A stretch of DNA of 64,000 bases, taken from Tropicimonas sp. IMCC6043 (GTDB taxonomy: Bacteria; Pseudomonadota; Alphaproteobacteria; Rhodobacterales; Rhodobacteraceae). The notes under the pieces were generated by a model that saw only the letters and a list, made by a program, of their open reading frames with translations, did no database searches and was not told the DNA's origin. Where the stretch lies: the NCBI RefSeq assembly GCF_004146235.1, contig NZ_SELO01000023.1:1-64000 (forward strand), read 5' to 3'. Numbering within the stretch: position 1 is the stretch's first letter; each line of letters starts with the position of its first letter. The position numbers and the translations under genes are program-made. Of the stretch, positions 1,480-35,349 are shown piece by piece.

Positions 1480-2319
1480 CTACCTTTCCAGTGGCTTGCT
1501 GATCGGGCGCAGCACCTGTCGCGTCGCCGCAACAAGAGGATCATGAGTTTCCTTGAGGATCTGCACCCGATCGAACCGGTCCTCGTCCCGGTTCACGGCG
1601 CTCCGCAGCGCTGCCCCAAAGGCCATGCGGAGCTCTGTGCCGATGTTGAATTTGCAGATGGCGGAACCTCGCGACAGATGCCGACGCTGTTCGATCGGAA
1701 CACCGGACCCGCCGTGAATGACGAGTGGAACATCCGTAACGGCTTCAATCGCTCGGATGCGCTCTTCGTCAAGCCCCTCGCCACTCTGCTTTTGCAGATG
1801 GACGTTGCCGACAGAGATTGCCATTGCATCCACGCGCGTTGCACGCGCGAAGGACGCCGCCTCTTCGGGGTCGGTGCCTGCGGAAGCCTCTCCATTGGAA
1901 TACCCGACGAAGCCGATCTCGCCCTCGCAGGATATCCCTGCCGAATGGGCGAGCTCGGCAACGGCTGCGGTCTCGTCCATGTTTTGGGCAAGCGGCTTTC
2001 GTGACCCGTCATACATGAGCGAGGTAAAACCCGAGTCCAGCGCGACTTGGCATTCTTCCATCGTATAGCCGTGGTCGAGATGAGCCACGACAGGCACCGA
2101 CGCGCCTTCTGCCAGATAGCGAAACATCTTTCCCAAGATCGGCAAGGGCGTGTGTTCTCGGCAAGAAGGACCTGCCTGCAGGATGACGGGCACTTGCTCG
2201 GCTTCGGCGGCATCCACATAGGCGCGCATGTCCTCCCAGCCGAGCGTAACCAGACCTCCCACGGCGTAGCCCTGCTTCATTGCTGGTTGCAGGACCTCTG
2301 CAAGAGTCGCGATCGTCAT
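1480..2319 (-). CDS. iolJ: Class II aldolase, probable 6-phospho-5-dehydro-2-deoxygluconate aldolase (IolJ-like)
   Basis: A 279-residue zinc-dependent class II fructose-bisphosphate aldolase-family protein. HLDHG at residues 80-84 carries the catalytic Asp and a zinc His. YDGS (103-106), EGEIG (132-136), GNVH (His174) and IHGGSG (His202) complete the active site and phosphate loop. In the iol operon the expected reaction is cleavage of DKG phosphate to malonate semialdehyde and DHAP. The start at 2319 overlaps the iolB stop as ATGA (2316-2319), indicating translational coupling; a longer frame to 2466 runs into iolB and was not used. No methylmalonate-semialdehyde dehydrogenase (IolA) is in the window, so the last step must be encoded elsewhere. 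General glycolytic aldolase activity remains an alternative. Confidence 0.82.
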   Translation of the reverse strand: MTIATLAEVLQPAMKQGYAVGGLVTLGWEDMRAYVDAAEAEQVPVILQAGPSCREHTPLPILGKMFRYLAEGASVPVVAHLDHGYTMEECQVALDSGFTSLMYDGSRKPLAQNMDETAAVAELAHSAGISCEGEIGFVGYSNGEASAGTDPEEAASFARATRVDAMAISVGNVHLQKQSGEGLDEERIRAIEAVTDVPLVIHGGSGVPIEQRRHLSRGSAICKFNIGTELRMAFGAALRSAVNRDEDRFDRVQILKETHDPLVAATRQVLRPISKPLER

Positions 2320-3158
2320 TTGAACTTGGCCACCATGTCCATGATGCCGGGAATCGTGTGGAGTTGGGCCGCATGGGTGGGTTGGAAATACTGTTTCAGG
2401 CTGCGCTGGCTCAGCCCGCCAAGAATGGTGAAGTAGTACATCTCGTAGCCTGGGAGCACGGCGCACGGGTGGTAGCCCTTGTCGATCAGGATCGTGGAGC
2501 CATCCATGATGTGATAGGCGTCTCCCGGCTCGTTATCCTGCCGTTGCAGCATCTGCAGGCCGGTGCCGTAGTTCGGGCGAAACCGGAAATTGTAGGTTTC
2601 GTCGTGACGGGTTTCGTCGGGAAGGCGATCGGTGTCATGCTTGTGGCTGGGGAAGCCTGACCATCCTCCCTGGCCGACGGTATAGAGTTCGCTCACGAGC
2701 AGCCGGCCCACCTTGTCGTGGTGTCTTGCGCCGAGAATGTGCTTGATCTTGCGGTGCGTCTTGGTTTCGTCCGAACCGTATTGCACCACGTCCAGGCCAT
2801 CCGCGCGGACCTCGAACGGCTCCAGGGCCTTGTCGTATTTGGCGCCGGCGATGAATGTCTCCGTGGCGTCGGTTTCGCAAGTGATCCGGACTTTCGCGCC
2901 GACGGGGACATAAACGCCCTCTGGCTCGCCGTCCCAGACGTCGATCGTTCGAGTGCCAAGTGACGCAAAGGTCACGCCCTCAACTTCGACATTTACGGTG
3001 CCGGTGGCAGGCACGACGCAGGTTTCGTAACCCGGCACGGCGTATTCGAAGCTCTGGCCTTTGGTGAGCTTGACGATGTTGAAGTAGTTGAGCGGCACCA
3101 ATGGGTGATTGGTGTCCACGATGGGCTGGTTCTGATTGTCATGTGGGGCAATGTGCAT
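2316..3158 (-). CDS. iolB: 5-deoxy-glucuronate isomerase IolB
   Basis: A 280-residue bicupin of the IolB family, which isomerises 5-deoxy-D-glucuronate to 5-dehydro-2-deoxy-D-gluconate. The metal-binding cupin motif is visible as PSHKHD at 170-175 followed by the HDETYNF segment near 186-192. The C-terminal DKGYHPCAVLPGYEMYYF stretch is typical of the family. Length is close to the family norm. It lies 14 bp downstream of iolC and overlaps the aldolase gene by 4 bp, so it is co-transcribed with both. Confidence 0.92.
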   Translation of the reverse strand: MHIAPHDNQNQPIVDTNHPLVPLNYFNIVKLTKGQSFEYAVPGYETCVVPATGTVNVEVEGVTFASLGTRTIDVWDGEPEGVYVPVGAKVRITCETDATETFIAGAKYDKALEPFEVRADGLDVVQYGSDETKTHRKIKHILGARHHDKVGRLLVSELYTVGQGGWSGFPSHKHDTDRLPDETRHDETYNFRFRPNYGTGLQMLQRQDNEPGDAYHIMDGSTILIDKGYHPCAVLPGYEMYYFTILGGLSQRSLKQYFQPTHAAQLHTIPGIMDMVAKFK

Positions 3159-3172
3159 GGATCTTGGCCTTT

Positions 3173-4156
3173 TCAGTTGTCGGTTGGGCCGGGATGAGCG
3201 GCAAGAAACGCATCGAGTTCGGCCGTCGTCGGCATCGATGGAGCACAGCCCGGTTTGGAGACGACGATGGAGGCGCAGGCCGAGCCGCGCAGAACCGCCT
3301 CGCGCAGATCCCGTCCCTCGGCAATGCCAGCCAGAAGGCCGGCCATGAAACTGTCGCCGGCGCCATTCGGCTTGACGGCGGTCACGGGGAAGATGCCGGT
3401 GTGGATTTCCTGCCCGTCCGCGAGCGTGATGGCGCCCTTCTGGCCCATCTTGTAGATCACGATGCGCCCGGGCTGCCGGGCGAGTTCGCGCGCCTTGTCG
3501 AGCCCCTTGTCAAGGCCGCCGGCCATGAAACCGAACTCATCGTCATTGCCAACGATTAGGTCGCATTCGTCCCCGGCACGGGACAGAACCTCTGAGGCAA
3601 CCTCGGGCGATGGCCAGGAGTATGGGCGGTAATCGATATCGAAGATAACCGGAAGGCCAGCCTTCCGCGCGTTCCGAAAGGCCCGGAAGGTGGAGCTGCG
3701 CGAGGGTTCGGCGGCAAAAACGGTCCCGGCGGTAATCAGGGCGCCGAAGGCGTCATAGTCGACACGGTCAACGTCCTCTTCGGTGACCTGGAAATCGACC
3801 GCGTTGTTTCGATAGATGCAGAGCTGGAAGTCCTCCATCGTGCTCTCGTAGACCGCGAGCGAAATGCGGTATTCCCCGTCCAGCACGCGCAGGTATTGGG
3901 TGTCGACGCCGTAATGGCGGAGCTGATTGGCACAGTATCTGCCGACGCAATCGTTCGAGATCGAAGTCACGAGTGCCGATTGTCCGCCCAACTTGCACAA
4001 CCCGGCGCAGATATTGGCCGACGAGCCTCCGAGGCCTGCCCGAAAGGTCTCTGCGACTTCTGCCTTCGTGCCTTGCGGATCGGCAAACATGTCCATGCCG
4101 GCCCGTCCGAATACCACGAAGCGATTCTTGCGGATTCCGTCGAGAAGGGCGCTCAT
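3173..4156 (-). CDS. iolC: 5-dehydro-2-deoxygluconokinase IolC
   Basis: A 327-residue PfkB/ribokinase-family kinase that phosphorylates 5-dehydro-2-deoxy-D-gluconate (DKG) at C6. GRAGMD near residue 17 and GGSSANIC near 43-50 form the N-terminal PfkB signature. KPNGAGDSFMAG near 265 is the ATP/anion-hole signature with the catalytic Asp, in the KPNGAGD form common in IolC. The start at 4156 shares one base with the iolD stop (TGATG), so the longer frame to 4255 inside iolD is not needed. In some bacteria IolC is fused to a DUF2090 aldolase domain; here it is the kinase alone, which fits with a separate aldolase gene in the operon. Confidence 0.92.
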   Translation of the reverse strand: MSALLDGIRKNRFVVFGRAGMDMFADPQGTKAEVAETFRAGLGGSSANICAGLCKLGGQSALVTSISNDCVGRYCANQLRHYGVDTQYLRVLDGEYRISLAVYESTMEDFQLCIYRNNAVDFQVTEEDVDRVDYDAFGALITAGTVFAAEPSRSSTFRAFRNARKAGLPVIFDIDYRPYSWPSPEVASEVLSRAGDECDLIVGNDDEFGFMAGGLDKGLDKARELARQPGRIVIYKMGQKGAITLADGQEIHTGIFPVTAVKPNGAGDSFMAGLLAGIAEGRDLREAVLRGSACASIVVSKPGCAPSMPTTAELDAFLAAHPGPTDN

Positions 4157-29025: not shown

Positions 29026-29610
29026 ATGTCGAACAAACTTTCAATTGTGGTCGTTGAGCCCGACCGGGAGCGCGCGATCCTGATCGTCGACAGCCTGCGT
29101 GCAGCAGGCGATTTCGACGTTTCGGTGATTTCCGAGGTCACCGGGCTGGCGCGCCACGTCTCAAGCCGCGATCCCGATGTCGTGCTGGTCGATCTCACGA
29201 GCCCTTCGCGCGACATCCTCGAGGAGTTGACGCTCGCCTCCGGACCGCTCGACCGGCCGGTGGCGATGTTCGTCGACCGCTCGGACGACAGCCTGACCAA
29301 GGCAGCCATCGAGGCGGGAGTCTCGGCCTATGTCGTCGACGGGCTGCGCGCCGACCGGATCAAGCCGATCATGGACGCGGCGATCGCCCGCTTTCACATG
29401 TTCCACCGGATGCGGCTCGAGTTGGAGACGACCAAGCGCGCGCTTGAGGAGCGCAAGGTGATCGATCGGGCAAAGGGCCTCCTGATGAAGGCGCGCGGTC
29501 TGGACGAAGAGGCTGCCTACGCGCTCCTGCGCAAGACGGCGATGGACCAGGGGCGAAAGGTGGTCGACGTCGCCGAGGCGCTGGTGACCGCCGCGGGGTT
29601 GCTGTCATGA
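29026..29610 (+). CDS. nasT: ANTAR-domain antiterminator NasT
   Basis: A 194-residue response-regulator-like protein. A receiver domain (LSIVVVEPDRERAILIVDSL, DVVLVDLTSPSRD) occupies residues 4-120 and a C-terminal ANTAR domain (KVIDRAKGLLMKARGLDEEA, AYALLRKTAM) binds RNA. In known systems NasT is held inactive by NasS and, when nitrate or nitrite is bound by NasS, binds two hexaloop hairpins in the nas leader to prevent termination. Such hairpins and a terminator are present at 30905-31022. The ATG at 29026 is the first before the conserved N-terminus; the frame upstream to 28630 is not convincing coding. It overlaps nasS by ATGA. Confidence 0.92.
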   Translation: MSNKLSIVVVEPDRERAILIVDSLRAAGDFDVSVISEVTGLARHVSSRDPDVVLVDLTSPSRDILEELTLASGPLDRPVAMFVDRSDDSLTKAAIEAGVSAYVVDGLRADRIKPIMDAAIARFHMFHRMRLELETTKRALEERKVIDRAKGLLMKARGLDEEAAYALLRKTAMDQGRKVVDVAEALVTAAGLLS

Positions 29611-30785
29611 GCCTGAAGCCGCTGGAAGCGGGCTTTATCCCGCTGGTCGATGCCGCGCCATTGATCCTTGCGCGCGAGATCGGCTTTGCCGAAGAGGAGG
29701 GCCTCGATCTCCGGCTTCGCGCGGCGCCAAGCTGGTCGACACTCAGGGACATGCTGGCCATCGGCGCGATCGATGCGGCGCATATGCTTTCTGCTATGCC
29801 GGTCGCCATGGCGCTCGGCCTAGGCGGCATCTCCGAGCGGATCGACGTGCTCTCGGTCCTCTCGGTCAACGGCAACGTTGTCGGAGTCTCCAGCGCGCTC
29901 GCGGAACGGATGCGCGTAGCCGGCCATCGGTTCGATTTCGCAGATGCCGACAGCGCCGGTCGCGCGCTTATCGAAGCGGCAGGGGACAGGCCCCGGATTG
30001 GCGTTCCCTTCCCCTTCTCCATGCACGCCGACCTGCTCTTCCACTGGCTCGGTGCGCTCGGTCTGCCCGCGCCGCAGGCGCTTCAGGTCGTCACGGTGCC
30101 GCCGCAGCTTATGGCGGAGGCCATCGCCGCGGGCGAGATCGATGCCTTTTGCGTCGGTTCGCCCTGGGGCTCCATCGCCGTCGAGAACGGAGTTGGCGAG
30201 CTCCTGTTGCCGGGCTCCGCGATCCGGGCCTTCGCCCCGGAAAAGGTTCTCGCGGTTCGGCATGGCTGGGCCGAGGCCGAGCCGGGCCTGACCCGGTCGC
30301 TCATGCGCGCGGCGTGGCGCACCGGCCGTTGGCTCAGCGAGGGCGGCAACCAGGTAACGGCGGCTGAGATCCTTTCCCGCCGCGAGTATCTCGACCTGTC
30401 GCCGGAGATCATTGAGCGGTCCCTTAGCGGCCAGCAGGTGATCTCCCCGCGAGGCGAGGTGCGCAGCGTGCCAAACTTCCTCGTCTTCTTCCGCGGCGCC
30501 GCAACATATCCGTGGCGCTCGCAGGCGGCCATGATCGCGCATTCCATGGCCGCGCGCGCGGGTCTTGACCGCGCAAACGCCATCGAGGCGGCGCGATCCA
30601 TCTTCCGCACCGATCTCTATCGGCAGAACCTGCGCGACCTTGGTGCCGAGATGCCCGGGGCGTCCGACAAGATCGAGGGCGCGCTCACCCGCCCGACGCC
30701 GGTCGCTTCCGAATCCGGCCGGCTGATTCTCGAACCGGATTCGTTCTTCGACGGCTACATTTTTGATCCAAGCACGCAAGACTGA
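29607..30785 (+). CDS. nasS: Nitrate/nitrite sensor NasS
   Basis: A 392-residue protein of the NrtA/CmpA nitrate-binding family that starts directly at the first conserved strand (LEAGFIPLVDAAPLILAREI) and has no signal peptide, as expected for the cytoplasmic sensor NasS rather than a transport component. The blocks GVPFPFSMHADLLFHWL, CVGSPWG and SVPNFLVFFRGAATYPWRSQ correspond to the anion-binding region seen also in the exported paralogue at 31060. It is translationally coupled to nasT (ATGA at 29607-29610). It is followed by the nas leader. Confidence 0.9.
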   Translation: MSLKPLEAGFIPLVDAAPLILAREIGFAEEEGLDLRLRAAPSWSTLRDMLAIGAIDAAHMLSAMPVAMALGLGGISERIDVLSVLSVNGNVVGVSSALAERMRVAGHRFDFADADSAGRALIEAAGDRPRIGVPFPFSMHADLLFHWLGALGLPAPQALQVVTVPPQLMAEAIAAGEIDAFCVGSPWGSIAVENGVGELLLPGSAIRAFAPEKVLAVRHGWAEAEPGLTRSLMRAAWRTGRWLSEGGNQVTAAEILSRREYLDLSPEIIERSLSGQQVISPRGEVRSVPNFLVFFRGAATYPWRSQAAMIAHSMAARAGLDRANAIEAARSIFRTDLYRQNLRDLGAEMPGASDKIEGALTRPTPVASESGRLILEPDSFFDGYIFDPSTQD

Positions 30786-30904
30786 CCGCCTTTTGGGCAG
30801 CGATCGCCGCGGGAGACGGCGAACTTTCGAGAATCCCCCCACCAAACCGGGCAAACCATCCCTGCGCGTTGACTTTGCAATGCTGCACCTGCATCCATGA
30901 TAAC

Positions 30905-30955
30905 GACCGGGGCAACGACGTCCCGTCACACGAAATCACCCTCAATGTCGTGGGT
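30905..30955 (+). ncRNA. Predicted ANTAR-target leader RNA with two hexaloop hairpins
   Basis: Two consecutive small hairpins are predicted. P1 pairs GAC and GGGGC (30905-30913, one bulged C) with GTCCC and GTC (30920-30927), enclosing the six-base loop AACGAC (30914-30919). P2 pairs ACCCTC (30938-30943) with GTGGGT (30950-30955, one U-U mismatch), enclosing AATGTC (30944-30949). Both loops are six bases with A at position 1 and G at position 4, the known ANTAR recognition pattern. A terminator begins 8 bp later and nrtA follows. NasT encoded just upstream is the obvious ligand. Folding was done by eye. Confidence 0.8.
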
Positions 30956-30963
30956 AGCCGAGC

Positions 30964-31022
30964 AAAGCCGCTCGACCTCCTGTCCCTCCGGGCAGGTTTG
31001 GTCAGCGGCTTTTTTGTTTTTT
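30964..31022 (+). terminator. Intrinsic terminator in the nas leader (attenuator)
   Basis: AAAGCCGCT (30964-30972) pairs with AGCGGCTTT (31004-31012). Inside it GACC/GGTC and CCTG-CCC/GGG-CAGG extend the stem, and it is followed by TTTTTTGTTTTTT (31010-31022). It lies 37 bp before the nrtA start and directly after the two hexaloop hairpins, so it should stop transcription of the nitrate operon unless NasT acts. Confidence 0.9.
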
Positions 31023-31059
31023 CGGCCCCCTTGCCGGGCCAGACACAGGACACAGAGAC

Positions 31060-32427
31060 ATGAAACGGACCGTCGCCTGCCTCCTCGCCACCTCCTGCCT
31101 TACGCTGCCCGCCGCGGCCGAGATGCTGGACGTCGAAAAGGACGAACTGACCTTCGGCTTCATCAAATTGACCGACATGGCCCCGCTCGCGATCGCCTAC
31201 GAGATGGGATATTTCGAAGATGAAGGTCTCTTCGTTACGCTTGAAGCCCAGGCGAACTGGAAGGTCCTGCTCGACGGCGTGATTGGCGGCCAGCTCGATG
31301 GCGCCCACATGCTCGCCGGTCAGCCGCTCGCCGCCACCATTGGCTTCGGCACCGAGGCGCATATCATCACGCCCTTCTCGATGGACCTGAACGGCAACGG
31401 CATCACCGTGTCGAACGAGATCTGGGAGCAGATGAAGGAGAACATCCCGTCTGATGCGGACGGCAAGCCGGTGCACCCGATCTCGGCCGCCGCCCTGAAG
31501 CCGGTCGTCGACAGCTACCGCGCCGAAGGCAAGCCCTTCAACATGGGCATGGTCTTCCCGGTCTCGACCCACAATTACGAGTTGCGCTACTGGCTCGCCG
31601 CTGGCGGCATCAAGCCGGGCTACTACTCCCCCGAGGACGTGACCGGCCAGATCGACGCCGAGGTTCTGCTCTCCGTGACTCCGCCGCCGCAGATGCCGGC
31701 AACGCTCGAGGCCGGCACGATCTATGGATATAGCGTCGGCGAGCCCTGGAACCAGCAGGCGGTCTTCATGGGCATCGGCGTTCCGGTGATCACCGATTAC
31801 GAGCTGTGGAAGAACAACCCCGAGAAGGTTTTCGGCATTACCGCCGCCTTCGCCGAGGAAAACCCCAACACCGCCATCGCCGTGACCAAGGCACTCATTC
31901 GCGCCGCCATCTGGCTTGACGAGAACGACAACGCCAACCGCCCGGAGGCGGTGGAGATCCTCAGCCGCTCCGAGTATGTCGGCGCGGACTATGACGTCAT
32001 CGCCAACTCGATGACCGGTACCTTCGAATACGAGAAGGGCGACAAGCGCGAGGTGCCCGACTTCAACGTGTTCTTCCGCTACAACGCGACCTATCCCTAC
32101 TACTCCGATGCCGTCTGGTACCTGACCCAGATGCGCCGCTGGGGCCAGATCGCCGAGGCCAAGCCCGACAGCTGGTATGACGAGGTCGCCCGCAATGTCT
32201 ACCGTCCCGACATCTACCTCGAGGCCGCGAAATCCCTCATCGACGACGGGCTCGCCACCGAAGACATGTTCGATTTCGAGACCGACGGCTACAAACCCGC
32301 GACCCCGGCGGAGGATGTCATCGACGGCATCGCCTATGACGGTCGCACGCCCAACGCCTATCTCGAAAGCCTGCCGATCGGCCTGAAGGGCGAACAGACC
32401 GTCGTCGGCAACGAAGTCCAGGGCTGA
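31060..32427 (+). CDS. nrtA: Nitrate ABC transporter periplasmic binding protein NrtA
   Basis: A 455-residue nitrate-binding protein with a ~21-residue signal peptide ending LPAAAE. The mature protein starts [20 protein letters not shown], with [45 protein letters not shown] and [20 protein letters not shown] as family blocks around the nitrate site. It is the first gene after the leader attenuator and heads the transport and reductase operon. The 127 bp to the next gene contain no clear terminator. Confidence 0.9.
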
Positions 32428-32554: not shown

Positions 32555-33640
32555 ATGACCGCCATCGACCCTGTCTCCCTAAGCGCCGCCGAGGCCAAGG
32601 AAGCCCGCAAGGCCCGGCTCTTTACCCGCATCAACAAGGCCGATTCCTGGTTCAAGGTCTTCGGTCTCTCCTTCATGACACCGCTTCTCAAGGCCGCCGC
32701 CGGCGACAACCCGAAGGCACAGCTCAAGGAGATCTGGCTGCTCCTCGGCGTTCCGATCGTCGCCATCGCCGCTTTCCTGATGCTCTGGGCCACGCTGGCG
32801 CCCAAGGTGCAGACCTCGCTTGGCGCCGTGCCCGGCCCGGCGCAGGTCTGGGAACAGGTGATCAACCTCAACGAGGACGCAATCCGGGAGCGCGAGAAGG
32901 AAGCCGATTTCTATGCGCGCCAGGAAGAACGCAACGCCAAGCTCGAGGCCGCCGGCAAGTCCGACAAGGTCAAGTGGCGCGACTATACCGGCAAGCCCAC
33001 CTATTACGACCAGATCTGGACCTCCATCCAGACCGTCTTCTTCGGTTTCCTGCTGGCTTCGGTGGTCGCCATCCCGCTCGGCATCCTCGCCGGTCTCTCT
33101 CGCGTCGGCGACGCCGCGCTGAACCCGATCGTCCAGATCTTCAAGCCGGTCTCTCCGCTGGCCTGGCTGCCTATCGTGACGATGGTCGTTTCGGCCACCT
33201 ACACGACCAACGAGGGCCTGTTCACCAAGTCCTTCCTGATCTCGGCCATCACCGTCACGCTCTGTTCGCTCTGGCCGACGCTCATCAACACCTCCCTCGG
33301 CGTGGCCTCGATCGACAAGGACCTCGTCAACGTTTCCAAGGTTCTGAAGATGTCGACCTGGACCAAGATCACAAAGCTGGTGCTGCCTTCCGCGCTGCCG
33401 CTGATCTTCACCGGCCTCAGGCTCTCGCTCGGTGTCGGATGGATGGTTCTGATCGCGGCCGAGATGCTGGCGCAGAACCCCGGCCTCGGAAAGTTCGTCT
33501 GGGACGAGTTCCAGAACGGATCGTCGCAGTCGCTCGCCAAGATCATGGTGGCGGTCTTCACTATCGGCATTATCGGCTTCCTGCTCGACCGGCTGATGTT
33601 CGCGCTGCAATCCCTCTTCACCTTCTCGAACAACCGGTGA
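32555..33640 (+). CDS. nrtB: Nitrate ABC transporter permease NrtB
   Basis: A 361-residue permease. A ~45-residue cytoplasmic N-terminus precedes the first helix. A charged segment of about 45 residues (NEDAIREREKEADFYARQEE and following) separates the first helix from the remaining core, making it longer than many NrtB proteins. The core ends with the coupling loop VSKVLKMSTWTKITKLVLPS near residue 262. The ATG at 32555 is chosen because upstream codons to 32471 look non-coding. It is followed 5 bp later by the double ATPase. Confidence 0.87.
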   Translation: MTAIDPVSLSAAEAKEARKARLFTRINKADSWFKVFGLSFMTPLLKAAAGDNPKAQLKEIWLLLGVPIVAIAAFLMLWATLAPKVQTSLGAVPGPAQVWEQVINLNEDAIREREKEADFYARQEERNAKLEAAGKSDKVKWRDYTGKPTYYDQIWTSIQTVFFGFLLASVVAIPLGILAGLSRVGDAALNPIVQIFKPVSPLAWLPIVTMVVSATYTTNEGLFTKSFLISAITVTLCSLWPTLINTSLGVASIDKDLVNVSKVLKMSTWTKITKLVLPSALPLIFTGLRLSLGVGWMVLIAAEMLAQNPGLGKFVWDEFQNGSSQSLAKIMVAVFTIGIIGFLLDRLMFALQSLFTFSNNR

Positions 33641-33645
33641 GCGCG

Positions 33646-35349
33646 ATGTCCATCCTGAAATTCGACAACGTCTCCAAGAGCTTCGGTGAAGGCACGGCCA
33701 GGACCGACGTGCTTAAGGGCATCGACCTGGAGGTCCGGGAGGGCGAGTTCCTCGTGCTCCTCGGCTTCTCCGGCACCGGCAAGACCACGCTGATCAACCT
33801 GATGGCGGGGCTGGAGATGCCCTTCTCCGGGTCAGTCACCTTCAAAGGTTCGCCGATCACCGGCCCGGGCCGCGAGCGCGGAGTGATCTTCCAGAACTAC
33901 TCGCTGATGCCCTGGCTCACCGTGACCGGCAATGTCCGCCTCGCCGTAGACACCGTCTTCCCCAACCTCTCCAAATCCGAGAAGGAAGCGAAGGTCGCGG
34001 ACTACGTCAAGATGGTCGGCCTCTCCCATGCCGCCACCCGCCGTCCGGCCGAGCTCTCGGGCGGCATGCGGCAGCGGGTGAACGTCGCCCGGGCGCTGGC
34101 GATGAGCCCAGAGGTCCTCCTCCTCGACGAGCCGCTTTCTGCGCTCGATGCCCTCACTCGTGCCAATCTCGCCGACGAGATCGAGAGTATCTGGGAGGCC
34201 GACAAGAAGACCTGTGTGCTCATCACAAACGACGTCGACGAGGCCATCGTGCTTGCCGACCGGATCATCGCGCTCAACCCGGACGGCACGCTCGGAGAGG
34301 AGTTCCACGTCGACATCCCGCGGCCTCGCGAGCGCGGCGAGATGAACCACCACGAGGGCTTCAAGCAACTCCGCGGCGCGGTGACGAAGTATCTCATGGA
34401 TGTCGGCTTCGCCGCCAAGGCCGAGGAGACCAAGACCCTCCCGCAGATCACCGCGATCCACAACGAGCCGCTGCCCAAGGCGCTGGCGGATGCGCGGGAA
34501 ACCACGCTGGAGGAGAAATACCTGGACTTCAGCCAGATCCACAAGATCTACCCCACGCCCAAAGGACCGCTCACCGTGGTCGAAGACTTCAACCTGAAGC
34601 TCGACAAGGGTGAATTCATCTCGCTGATCGGCCATTCGGGATGCGGCAAGTCCACCGTGCTGACCATGGCCGCCGGGCTTAACGCGATCTCCAAGGGCGT
34701 GATCCGGCTGGACGGCCGCGGCGTCATCGGTGCTGATCCGGAACGCGCGGTTGTCTTCCAGTCGCCGTCGCTCTTCCCCTGGCTGACGGCGCGCGAGAAC
34801 TGCGCCATCGGCGTCGACCGGGTCTATCCGAAGGCATCGCGCGCCGAACGGCAGGACGTGGTCGATTACTACCTCGAGCGTGTCGGCCTCGCCGACAGCA
34901 TGGACAAGCCCGCGCATTCGCTTTCGAACGGCATGAAGCAGCGCGTCGGCATCGCCCGCGCCTTTGCACTCTCGCCCAAGCTCCTGCTGCTCGACGAGCC
35001 TTTCGGCATGCTCGACAGCCTCACACGCTGGGAGCTTCAGGAAGCGCTGATGGAGGTCTGGAGCCGCACCAAGGTCACCGCGGTCTGCGTCACCCATGAC
35101 GTGGACGAGGCGATCCTGCTCGCCGACCGGGTGGTGATGATGACCAATGGGCCGCAGGCCACGATCGGCCGCATCGTCGATGTGGACCTGCCCCGGCCAC
35201 GCACTCGCAAGGCGCTGCTCGCGCATCCTGACTACTACCTCTACCGCGAGCAGGTCCTGAGCTTCCTCGAGGAATACGAACACGGGGCCAAGCCGAAATC
35301 CGCCCCCGCTGAGCCCGAACCGAAGGCCAGCGCCAGCAAGGCCGCCTGA
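33646..35349 (+). CDS. Nitrate ABC transporter, tandem ATP-binding protein (NrtC/NrtD-like fusion)
   Basis: A 567-residue protein carrying two complete ATPase domains. The first has Walker A GFSGTGKT near residue 40, SGGMRQRVNVARAL near 138 and Walker B VLLLDEPLSALD. The second has GHSGCGKST near 328, LSNGMKQRVGIARAF near 425 and LLLLDEPFGMLD. In the first domain the usual switch His is replaced, the sequence being LITNDVDEA instead of VTHDVDEA, so one ATP site may be degenerate. Cyanobacterial NrtC instead fuses an ATPase with a binding-protein domain. The C-terminus is Ala/Pro/Lys-rich. The gene is co-transcribed with nrtB. Confidence 0.88.
   Translation: MSILKFDNVSKSFGEGTARTDVLKGIDLEVREGEFLVLLGFSGTGKTTLINLMAGLEMPFSGSVTFKGSPITGPGRERGVIFQNYSLMPWLTVTGNVRLAVDTVFPNLSKSEKEAKVADYVKMVGLSHAATRRPAELSGGMRQRVNVARALAMSPEVLLLDEPLSALDALTRANLADEIESIWEADKKTCVLITNDVDEAIVLADRIIALNPDGTLGEEFHVDIPRPRERGEMNHHEGFKQLRGAVTKYLMDVGFAAKAEETKTLPQITAIHNEPLPKALADARETTLEEKYLDFSQIHKIYPTPKGPLTVVEDFNLKLDKGEFISLIGHSGCGKSTVLTMAAGLNAISKGVIRLDGRGVIGADPERAVVFQSPSLFPWLTARENCAIGVDRVYPKASRAERQDVVDYYLERVGLADSMDKPAHSLSNGMKQRVGIARAFALSPKLLLLDEPFGMLDSLTRWELQEALMEVWSRTKVTAVCVTHDVDEAILLADRVVMMTNGPQATIGRIVDVDLPRPRTRKALLAHPDYYLYREQVLSFLEEYEHGAKPKSAPAEPEPKASASKAA

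Follow-up and report, generated by a model that had tools for sequence, protein, structure and literature searches.

The window, a stretch of 64,000 nucleotides from Tropicimonas sp. IMCC6043, carries on its forward strand a leader that runs from the end of nasS (30785) to the start of an nrtA-like gene (31060). Directly 5' of it lie nasT (29026-29610), encoding a 194-aa protein with a receiver-like part and an ANTAR RNA-binding domain (Pfam ANTAR, 6.6e-23, queried without the first Met), and nasS (29607-30785), which overlaps the nasT stop and encodes an NrtA-like nitrate/nitrite sensor (Pfam NMT1_2, 4.8e-56). The closest named relative of NasS is that of Tropicimonas marinistellae, at 79% identity, and a signal peptide is not obvious by eye. 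The first gene 3' of the leader (31060-32427) encodes an NrtA-like nitrate ABC transporter binding protein (Pfam NMT1_2, 3.2e-94), followed by genes for a permease, a double-ATPase, a GAF protein and NirB; the open reading frame at 32974-35349 holds two ABC_tran stretches (Pfam) in a single frame, as an NrtC/NrtD-like fusion. An ANTAR protein and an NrtA-like sensor are hence co-encoded beside nas/nrt genes, as in NasS-NasT systems. Two further ANTAR genes occur in this genome: one AmiR-like (G000:C91, L002; Pfam 1.4e-30), and one AmiR-like under the curated cut-off (G000:C72, L003; 1.4e-5) that adjoins an ABC-transporter permease-like reading frame.

The leader contains three consecutive hexaloop hairpins, here termed P0, PM and P2, and an intrinsic terminator, all on the forward strand. 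P0 (30908-30925; CGGGGC-AACGAC-GTCCCG, 6 bp) has its loop at 30914-30919. The middle hairpin PM (30938-30955; ACCC(T)C-AATGTC-G(T)GGGT) has its loop at 30944-30949 and a stem, ACCC.C/G.GGGT, that carries a T.T mismatch. P2 (30959-30974; CGAGC-AAAGCC-GCTCG, 5 bp) sits between PM and the terminator, and its loop and 3' stem form part of the terminator's 5' arm. The terminator stem, AAAGCCGCT...AGCGGCTTT, spans 30964-31012, begins 8 nt past PM and runs into a 13-nt T-rich tract, TTTTTTGTTTTTT (31010-31022). Searched for A..G.. loops with four or more contiguous closing pairs, the stretch 30781-31060 yields AACGAC (6 bp) and AAAGCC (5 bp); AATGTC is absent from that search because of the T.T mismatch. 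Hairpins of at least 3 bp with a six-base A1/G4 loop, two of which mark an ANTAR target, are accordingly present as P0 and P2, with PM added if its mismatch is allowed. An earlier note on this DNA had named P0 and PM, and its two loops, both six bases with A at position 1 and G at position 4, are found where it placed them; its terminator, 8 nt beyond the second hairpin with a 13-base T-rich tract, was likewise confirmed.

The folding energies are dominated by the terminator. The 131-nt leader fold beats all 200 shuffles (z -4.62), mostly owing to the terminator, whose region (30960-31022) folds at -33.7 kcal/mol; a simple terminator scan with loops of 3-8 listed no terminator here. For the 81 nt ahead of the terminator the z-score is -1.86, with 10 of 200 shuffles as good or better. 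As lone hairpins, P0, PM and P2 reach -10.1, -5.3 and -7.9 kcal/mol, a sum of -23.3 against -51.4 kcal/mol for the free leader including the terminator, from which it would follow that the antiterminator has to be held in place by a protein or by timing. RNAfold draws PM in one of four folds (30905-31022), favouring the pairing CACGA/TCGTG in the 131-nt leader and in the 81-nt and 76-nt pieces, and the enumerator of middle hairpins also picks a pairing other than the AATGTC hairpin. Taken by itself the PM of the window is weak, and the argument for it comes from its relatives.

Leaders for comparison were gathered via nasS, not by RNA similarity, from 25 of 60 close relatives with a match, 27 named contigs and 102 of 246 genomes across the window's family (genome-search family f1, taken as Rhodobacteraceae). 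The family sample comprises 101 loci; two of them (L018, L023) lie at contig edges, leaving 99 readable leaders. The motif is present in 93 of these 99; the other six (L065, L102, L114, L123, L125 and L019) lack it by the rules used, and L114 shows three hexaloops in a looser scan. Altogether there are 118 distinct leaders, 109 of which passed the automatic checks of the outer hexaloops (106 from the window's family and 3 from Roseibium); the nine that failed all still have A1/G4 in P0. These leaders are kin by descent, so the counts given below are not independent of one another. L018 was excluded from the counts, being at a contig edge, on the opposite strand and not 3' of nasS. It does contain a hexaloop-bearing match to the covariance model R1 (1638-1711, plus strand, E 1.3e-4) with a T tract behind it; this match lies upstream of nasS on the opposite strand and is not a nasS-nrtA leader.

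The stems of all three hairpins covary, as the earlier note had proposed to look for in the leaders of relatives. In alignment A2, made up of 100 leaders linked to nasS and one further site in L060, and fitted to the model in a way that favours its structure, 14 of 16 pairs show changes on both sides (101 rows): five of six in P0, all five in PM and four of five in P2. The proportion of paired cells is 89.7%, compared with 73.9% in shuffles and 25-50% in slid structures, and none of 500 shuffles reaches any of the five covariation measures. By helix, paired cells amount to 90.8% in P0, 79.0% in PM and 98.8% in P2, PM being the least well paired. The A at loop position 1 is kept in 103 of 109 leaders in P0 and in 106 of 109 in P2, figures that are not independent evidence of loop conservation, because the calling of P0 and P2 demanded a purine at position 1 and G at position 4; PM was free of that demand.

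P2 is tied to the terminator throughout the set. Independently of the fitted alignment, its loop and 3' stem pair with the terminator's 3' arm at no fewer than seven of nine positions in 106 of 109 leaders (107 of 110 with L018). At loop position 3 the partner in the arm gives A-T in 78 leaders, G-C in 15, C-G in 2, T-A, G-T in one each, and a mismatch in 10. The shared bases and the covariation demonstrate that P2 or the predicted terminator would form, never both. P2 is therefore a further hexaloop hairpin that is mutually exclusive with the terminator, just as the second hairpin overlaps the terminator in ANTAR leaders described before (PMC3369931). This bears on the idea, put forward in the earlier note, that NasT targets P0 and PM, with a separate terminator that no antiterminator hairpin overlaps. 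Both of those loops do carry A1/G4 in the window, yet the idea leaves aside a strongly conserved hexaloop with a covarying stem, and described ANTAR leaders are built otherwise, so it is very improbable. AACGAC and AATGTC are not the complete target, since the AAAGCC hairpin competes with the terminator, and the two hairpins followed by a separate terminator give way to three hexaloops, the last within the terminator arm. The broader proposal of a NasT antitermination leader stands, with nasT and nasS directly 5', a P0 that covaries and keeps A1/G4, and a conserved terminator; the third hexaloop had been overlooked. In 37 of 119 rows, L018 not among them, an octamer resembling an anti-Shine-Dalgarno sequence, CTCCTCCC, occurs within 110 nt 3' of P2 (shuffles: mean 0.67, maximum 6; for example L088, L137 and L141), and the window has a looser version.

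The conservation also bears on a plainer account, in which the terminator only ends the nasTS transcript and nitrate control does not involve the hairpins. There would be nothing unusual in a terminator behind nasS, and Rfam, at curated and loose thresholds, matched no ANTAR-type family; its one match in the leader was a sub-threshold Burkholderia sRNA (14.6 bits, cut-off 40). Three loops conserved across the family with covariation and terminator overlap, together with the published binding of NasT to the nasA leader of Paracoccus denitrificans (PMC3795266), make this account almost certainly wrong. That the nasS-nrtA leader works by NasT (ANTAR) antitermination is very probable.

Upstream of P0, a TTGAC at 30869-30873, 45 nt 5' of the P0 loop, is a candidate -35 element; a scan for the sigma-70 consensus gave no complete promoter. 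In the stretch tested, TTGAC is present in 30 of 109 leaders, with 30 occurrences 42-49 nt 5' of P0, against a mean of 3.9 and a maximum of 11 in shuffles. In the outgroup leaders L057-L059, L212, L217 and L219, a sigma-54-like TGGCAC-N5-TGC was seen by eye just 5' of the leader. Set against the TTGAC of the main set, this possibly reflects a switch of promoter with the RNA switch retained.

The role of the middle hairpin is the point on which the remaining readings differ. PM is found in 108 of 109 leaders, the exception by the caller being L142. Its loop has 6 nt in 64 leaders, 7 nt in 33 and 8 nt in 11. G4 is present in 83 of 108 loops (200 shuffles of the same linkers: mean 18.7, maximum 30), a purine at position 1 together with G4 in 76 of 108 (200 shuffles: mean 8.2, maximum 17), and the full A1/G4 in 42 of 108; without the three Roseibium rows, G4 stands at 80 of 105 and purine-1/G4 at 73 of 105. 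Outside the 25 leaders that seeded the model, G4 holds in 24 of 34 strict-pattern leaders and 38 of 50 covariance-model leaders (L018 included). Position 1 is A in just 56 of 108 and is relaxed to A or G. The conservation of A1/G4 in relatives, on which the earlier note had staked its hairpins, holds for P0 and in PM is relaxed at position 1. Some leaders have perfect A1/G4 loops closed by C-G in PM (AAAGAT, AAGGGC, AAGGAC), and the PM loops of L097 (ACAGCC) and L110 (AAAGCC) are sequences used in P2 too.

These data can be weighed against an ordinary two-hexaloop ANTAR leader, in which P0 and P2 are the targets and PM is a mere structural spacer, a helix that brings the two closer and whose own loop is not contacted. 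The loops of P0 and P2 are far better kept than that of PM (with the demand on their calling stated above), and some PM loops have 7-8 nt and lack G4, as a spacer would permit. In a spacer no base of the loop would have to be fixed, whereas position 4 is the best-kept position of the PM loop (77%, 0.91 bits; the next reaches 0.45). Moreover, hairpin HI of P. denitrificans, found in the place of PM, is essential (PMC5424462), with the proviso that the three-base change made there might also break the helix. The spacer account is on this balance unlikely. Several features weigh against PM as a relay all the same: 25 of 108 PM loops lack G4 by the caller used, the window among them, where the top-scoring middle hairpin differs, and 44 of 108 loops have 7 or 8 nt. 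The relaxed position 1, the poorer pairing of the PM helix and, in the window, its T.T mismatch and low stability count on the same side.

The spacing of the hairpins is regular. The distance from the start of the P0 loop to that of the P2 loop is 42-59 nt in 104 of 109 leaders, and the median distances between loop starts are 28 nt from P0 to PM, 21 nt from PM to P2 and about 49 nt from P0 to P2. In eutP the two loop starts, A29 and A53, are 24 nt apart (PMC3369931). L142, the sole leader without PM, places P0 and P2 28 nt apart, and the other spacings below 42 nt (36 nt in L134, 38 nt in L147 and L148) accompany PM loops without G4. The hexaloops would thus fit a ladder climbed in eutP-like steps, but the exceptional leaders that bear on it are few. 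In the window, the P0-P2 linker of 33 nt falls outside both the 5-12 nt of eut leaders (PMC3369931) and the 2-25 nt accepted for ANTAR targets (PMC8164766); the P0-PM linker of 12 nt lies within both ranges, and the PM-P2 linker of 3 nt lies within 2-25 nt and is shorter than 5. Extension of the linker by 20 nt stops antitermination by EutV (PMC8934654). A linker of 3 nt engineered in eutP crippled it (PMC3369931), and the PM-P2 gap of the window, being of that very length, counts against a relay.

Beyond the family, three hexaloops were found in L174 (from the genome of L158), L224, L231, L240 and the Roseibium leaders L057-L059, and two in Ensifer L219 and in L227, L228 and L253. An outgroup scan found a terminator-linked hexaloop in 17 of 40 loci; as a sketch of the dual/triple split, three of these 17 have two upstream hexaloops, six have one close by (18-26 nt), three have one far off (37-49 nt) and five have none. 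That several alphaproteobacterial relatives possess a single hexaloop 5' of P2 counts against a relay. It also raises the possibility that PM and P2 constitute the two-hexaloop leader proper, as in several Rhizobiales-type leaders, with P0 added or auxiliary. The six outgroup leaders with one close upstream hexaloop accord with this, as does L219, in which PM-like and P2 hexaloops stand 21 nt apart and a tetraloop hairpin, judged by eye, occupies the place of P0. Within the window's family, however, the P0 loop is stricter than that of PM and its stem covaries strongly, PM being the degenerate member, which renders an auxiliary P0 rather improbable, and more so than the spacer account. A class-wide search with R1 gave matches in 6 of 289 genomes, two within the family; among the four others, L158 is a leader, L159 and L161 lie on contigs other than that of the NasT gene, and L160, about 130 nt from the NasT gene, may be a leader. 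Within the Tropicimonas genome, the window (a training row) is the sole strong match to R1, the next having E of at least 0.14.

Leaders of the same build precede genes of the siroheme-synthase type in four family genomes (L292, L293, L294 and L060, the last at about 3144-3200 on the minus strand). L292-L294 encode tetrapyrrole methylases (Pfam TP_methylase), two with a CysG dimerisation domain, and L060 does likewise by eye; the PM loops, read by eye, are AATGAC, GATGTTC, GAAGCC and AAAACC. This distribution suggests that cofactor supply belongs to the NasT regulon and that some relatives control siroheme synthesis jointly with nitrate assimilation. A weaker leader of the same type, recognized by eye, stands before a NirB-like gene in L295.

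Taken together, the leader probably acts as a NasT antiterminator composed of three ANTAR-type hexaloops, in which PM bridges P0 and P2, the contacts with NasT being putative and drawn from aligned sequences and from analogy with better-studied ANTAR proteins. The NasS and NasT steps are modelled on EutV and on NasS-NasT of P. denitrificans, in which nitrate dissociates the NasS-NasT complex and frees NasT (PMC3795266). In the absence of nitrate, NasS would retain NasT, and the terminator would halt transcription ahead of nrtA. In the presence of nitrate, freed NasT would first meet P0, close to the transcript's 5' end, next PM and finally P2. The three hairpins, about 21-28 nt apart, would let PM serve as a binding and relay site across the gap of about 49 nt between P0 and P2. 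NasT would then stabilize P2, whose loop and 3' stem are also part of the terminator's 5' arm, long enough for RNA polymerase to clear the terminator.

A comparison with EutV (6wsh), aligned with a two-residue offset deduced from residue types, is compatible with such contacts. NasT keeps R142, K143, K149, E160, Y164, R168 and M172 and carries the changes K147R, N173D, R175G and R177K, relative to the contact residues named for EutV (PMC8934654); the residues by which EutV contacts G4 are retained. EutV flips G4 out and stacks it on Tyr164, and A1 receives no specific contact (PMC8934654). The relaxed position 1 and the kept G4 of PM would therefore resemble a tolerated ANTAR contact, G4 being the base that EutV touches and A1 not.

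In a wider claim, NasT leaders in the window's family and in certain other Alphaproteobacteria would form a distinct three-hexaloop class of ANTAR antiterminator, with the middle loop an obligatory stepping stone for NasT, the outer loops about twice the dual-motif distance apart, and HI of P. denitrificans corresponding to the middle loop; as a whole this claim is tentative, with doubt slightly outweighing belief. One ANTAR dimer cannot hold two hexaloops at once, and how both come to be used is unsettled (PMC8934654). A natural three-hexaloop class and its two-hexaloop relatives would offer ready constructs for setting stepwise handover against simple tethering, and if the class is real, search models built on two hairpins and short linkers can misread such leaders. 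Among the papers listed in literature searches, few of them from subscription journals, no three-hairpin NasT/ANTAR leader appeared.

Among the closest known systems, the nasA leader of P. denitrificans is alike in its regulators, gene order and three-hexaloop spacing. In strain HAMBI_2443 (L218), counted from the nasA ATG, the 5' ends of the hexaloops AACGGC, AATGAT and GACGAT fall at -160, -134 and -111, with loop starts separated by 25 and 23 nt; two more loose hexaloop matches upstream, with 5' ends at -245 and -221, count against a relay. The published account describes two hairpins, HI at 137 bp and HII at 91 bp upstream of nasA. Mutation of HI severely cut transcription and induction and abolished growth on nitrate, and mutation of HII affected induced expression little (PMC5424462). 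By position, HI would be the middle hexaloop and HII the terminator, assuming that the leader of the published strain, PD1222, is identical to that of HAMBI_2443. The P. denitrificans leader differs from the window in having a poor terminator T tract and no clear overlap of the third hexaloop with the terminator, and its first gene, by our own reading of the translation, is a MFS-type transporter.

The Bradyrhizobium leaders (nosR, nirA) and the Ensifer leader share NasT-type control; in Ensifer L219 an A1/G4 hexaloop is followed by a terminator-linked one, but there are just two. EutX/Rli55 is reported to have an extra G4 hexaloop beside the dual motif (PMC8934654), in which it resembles the window, but it acts as a small RNA sequestering EutV and is no cis leader whose third hexaloop is linked to a terminator. 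With the dual-hexaloop RNAs of EutV/eutP, NasR/nasF and AmiR/amiE, the window shares short hairpins with six-base A1/G4 loops, the last overlapping an intrinsic terminator. Those RNAs have two hexaloops, whereas the window has three, with a conserved G4 hexaloop between the outer pair, and the three-hexaloop leader looks like a widespread variant of this known RNA switch.
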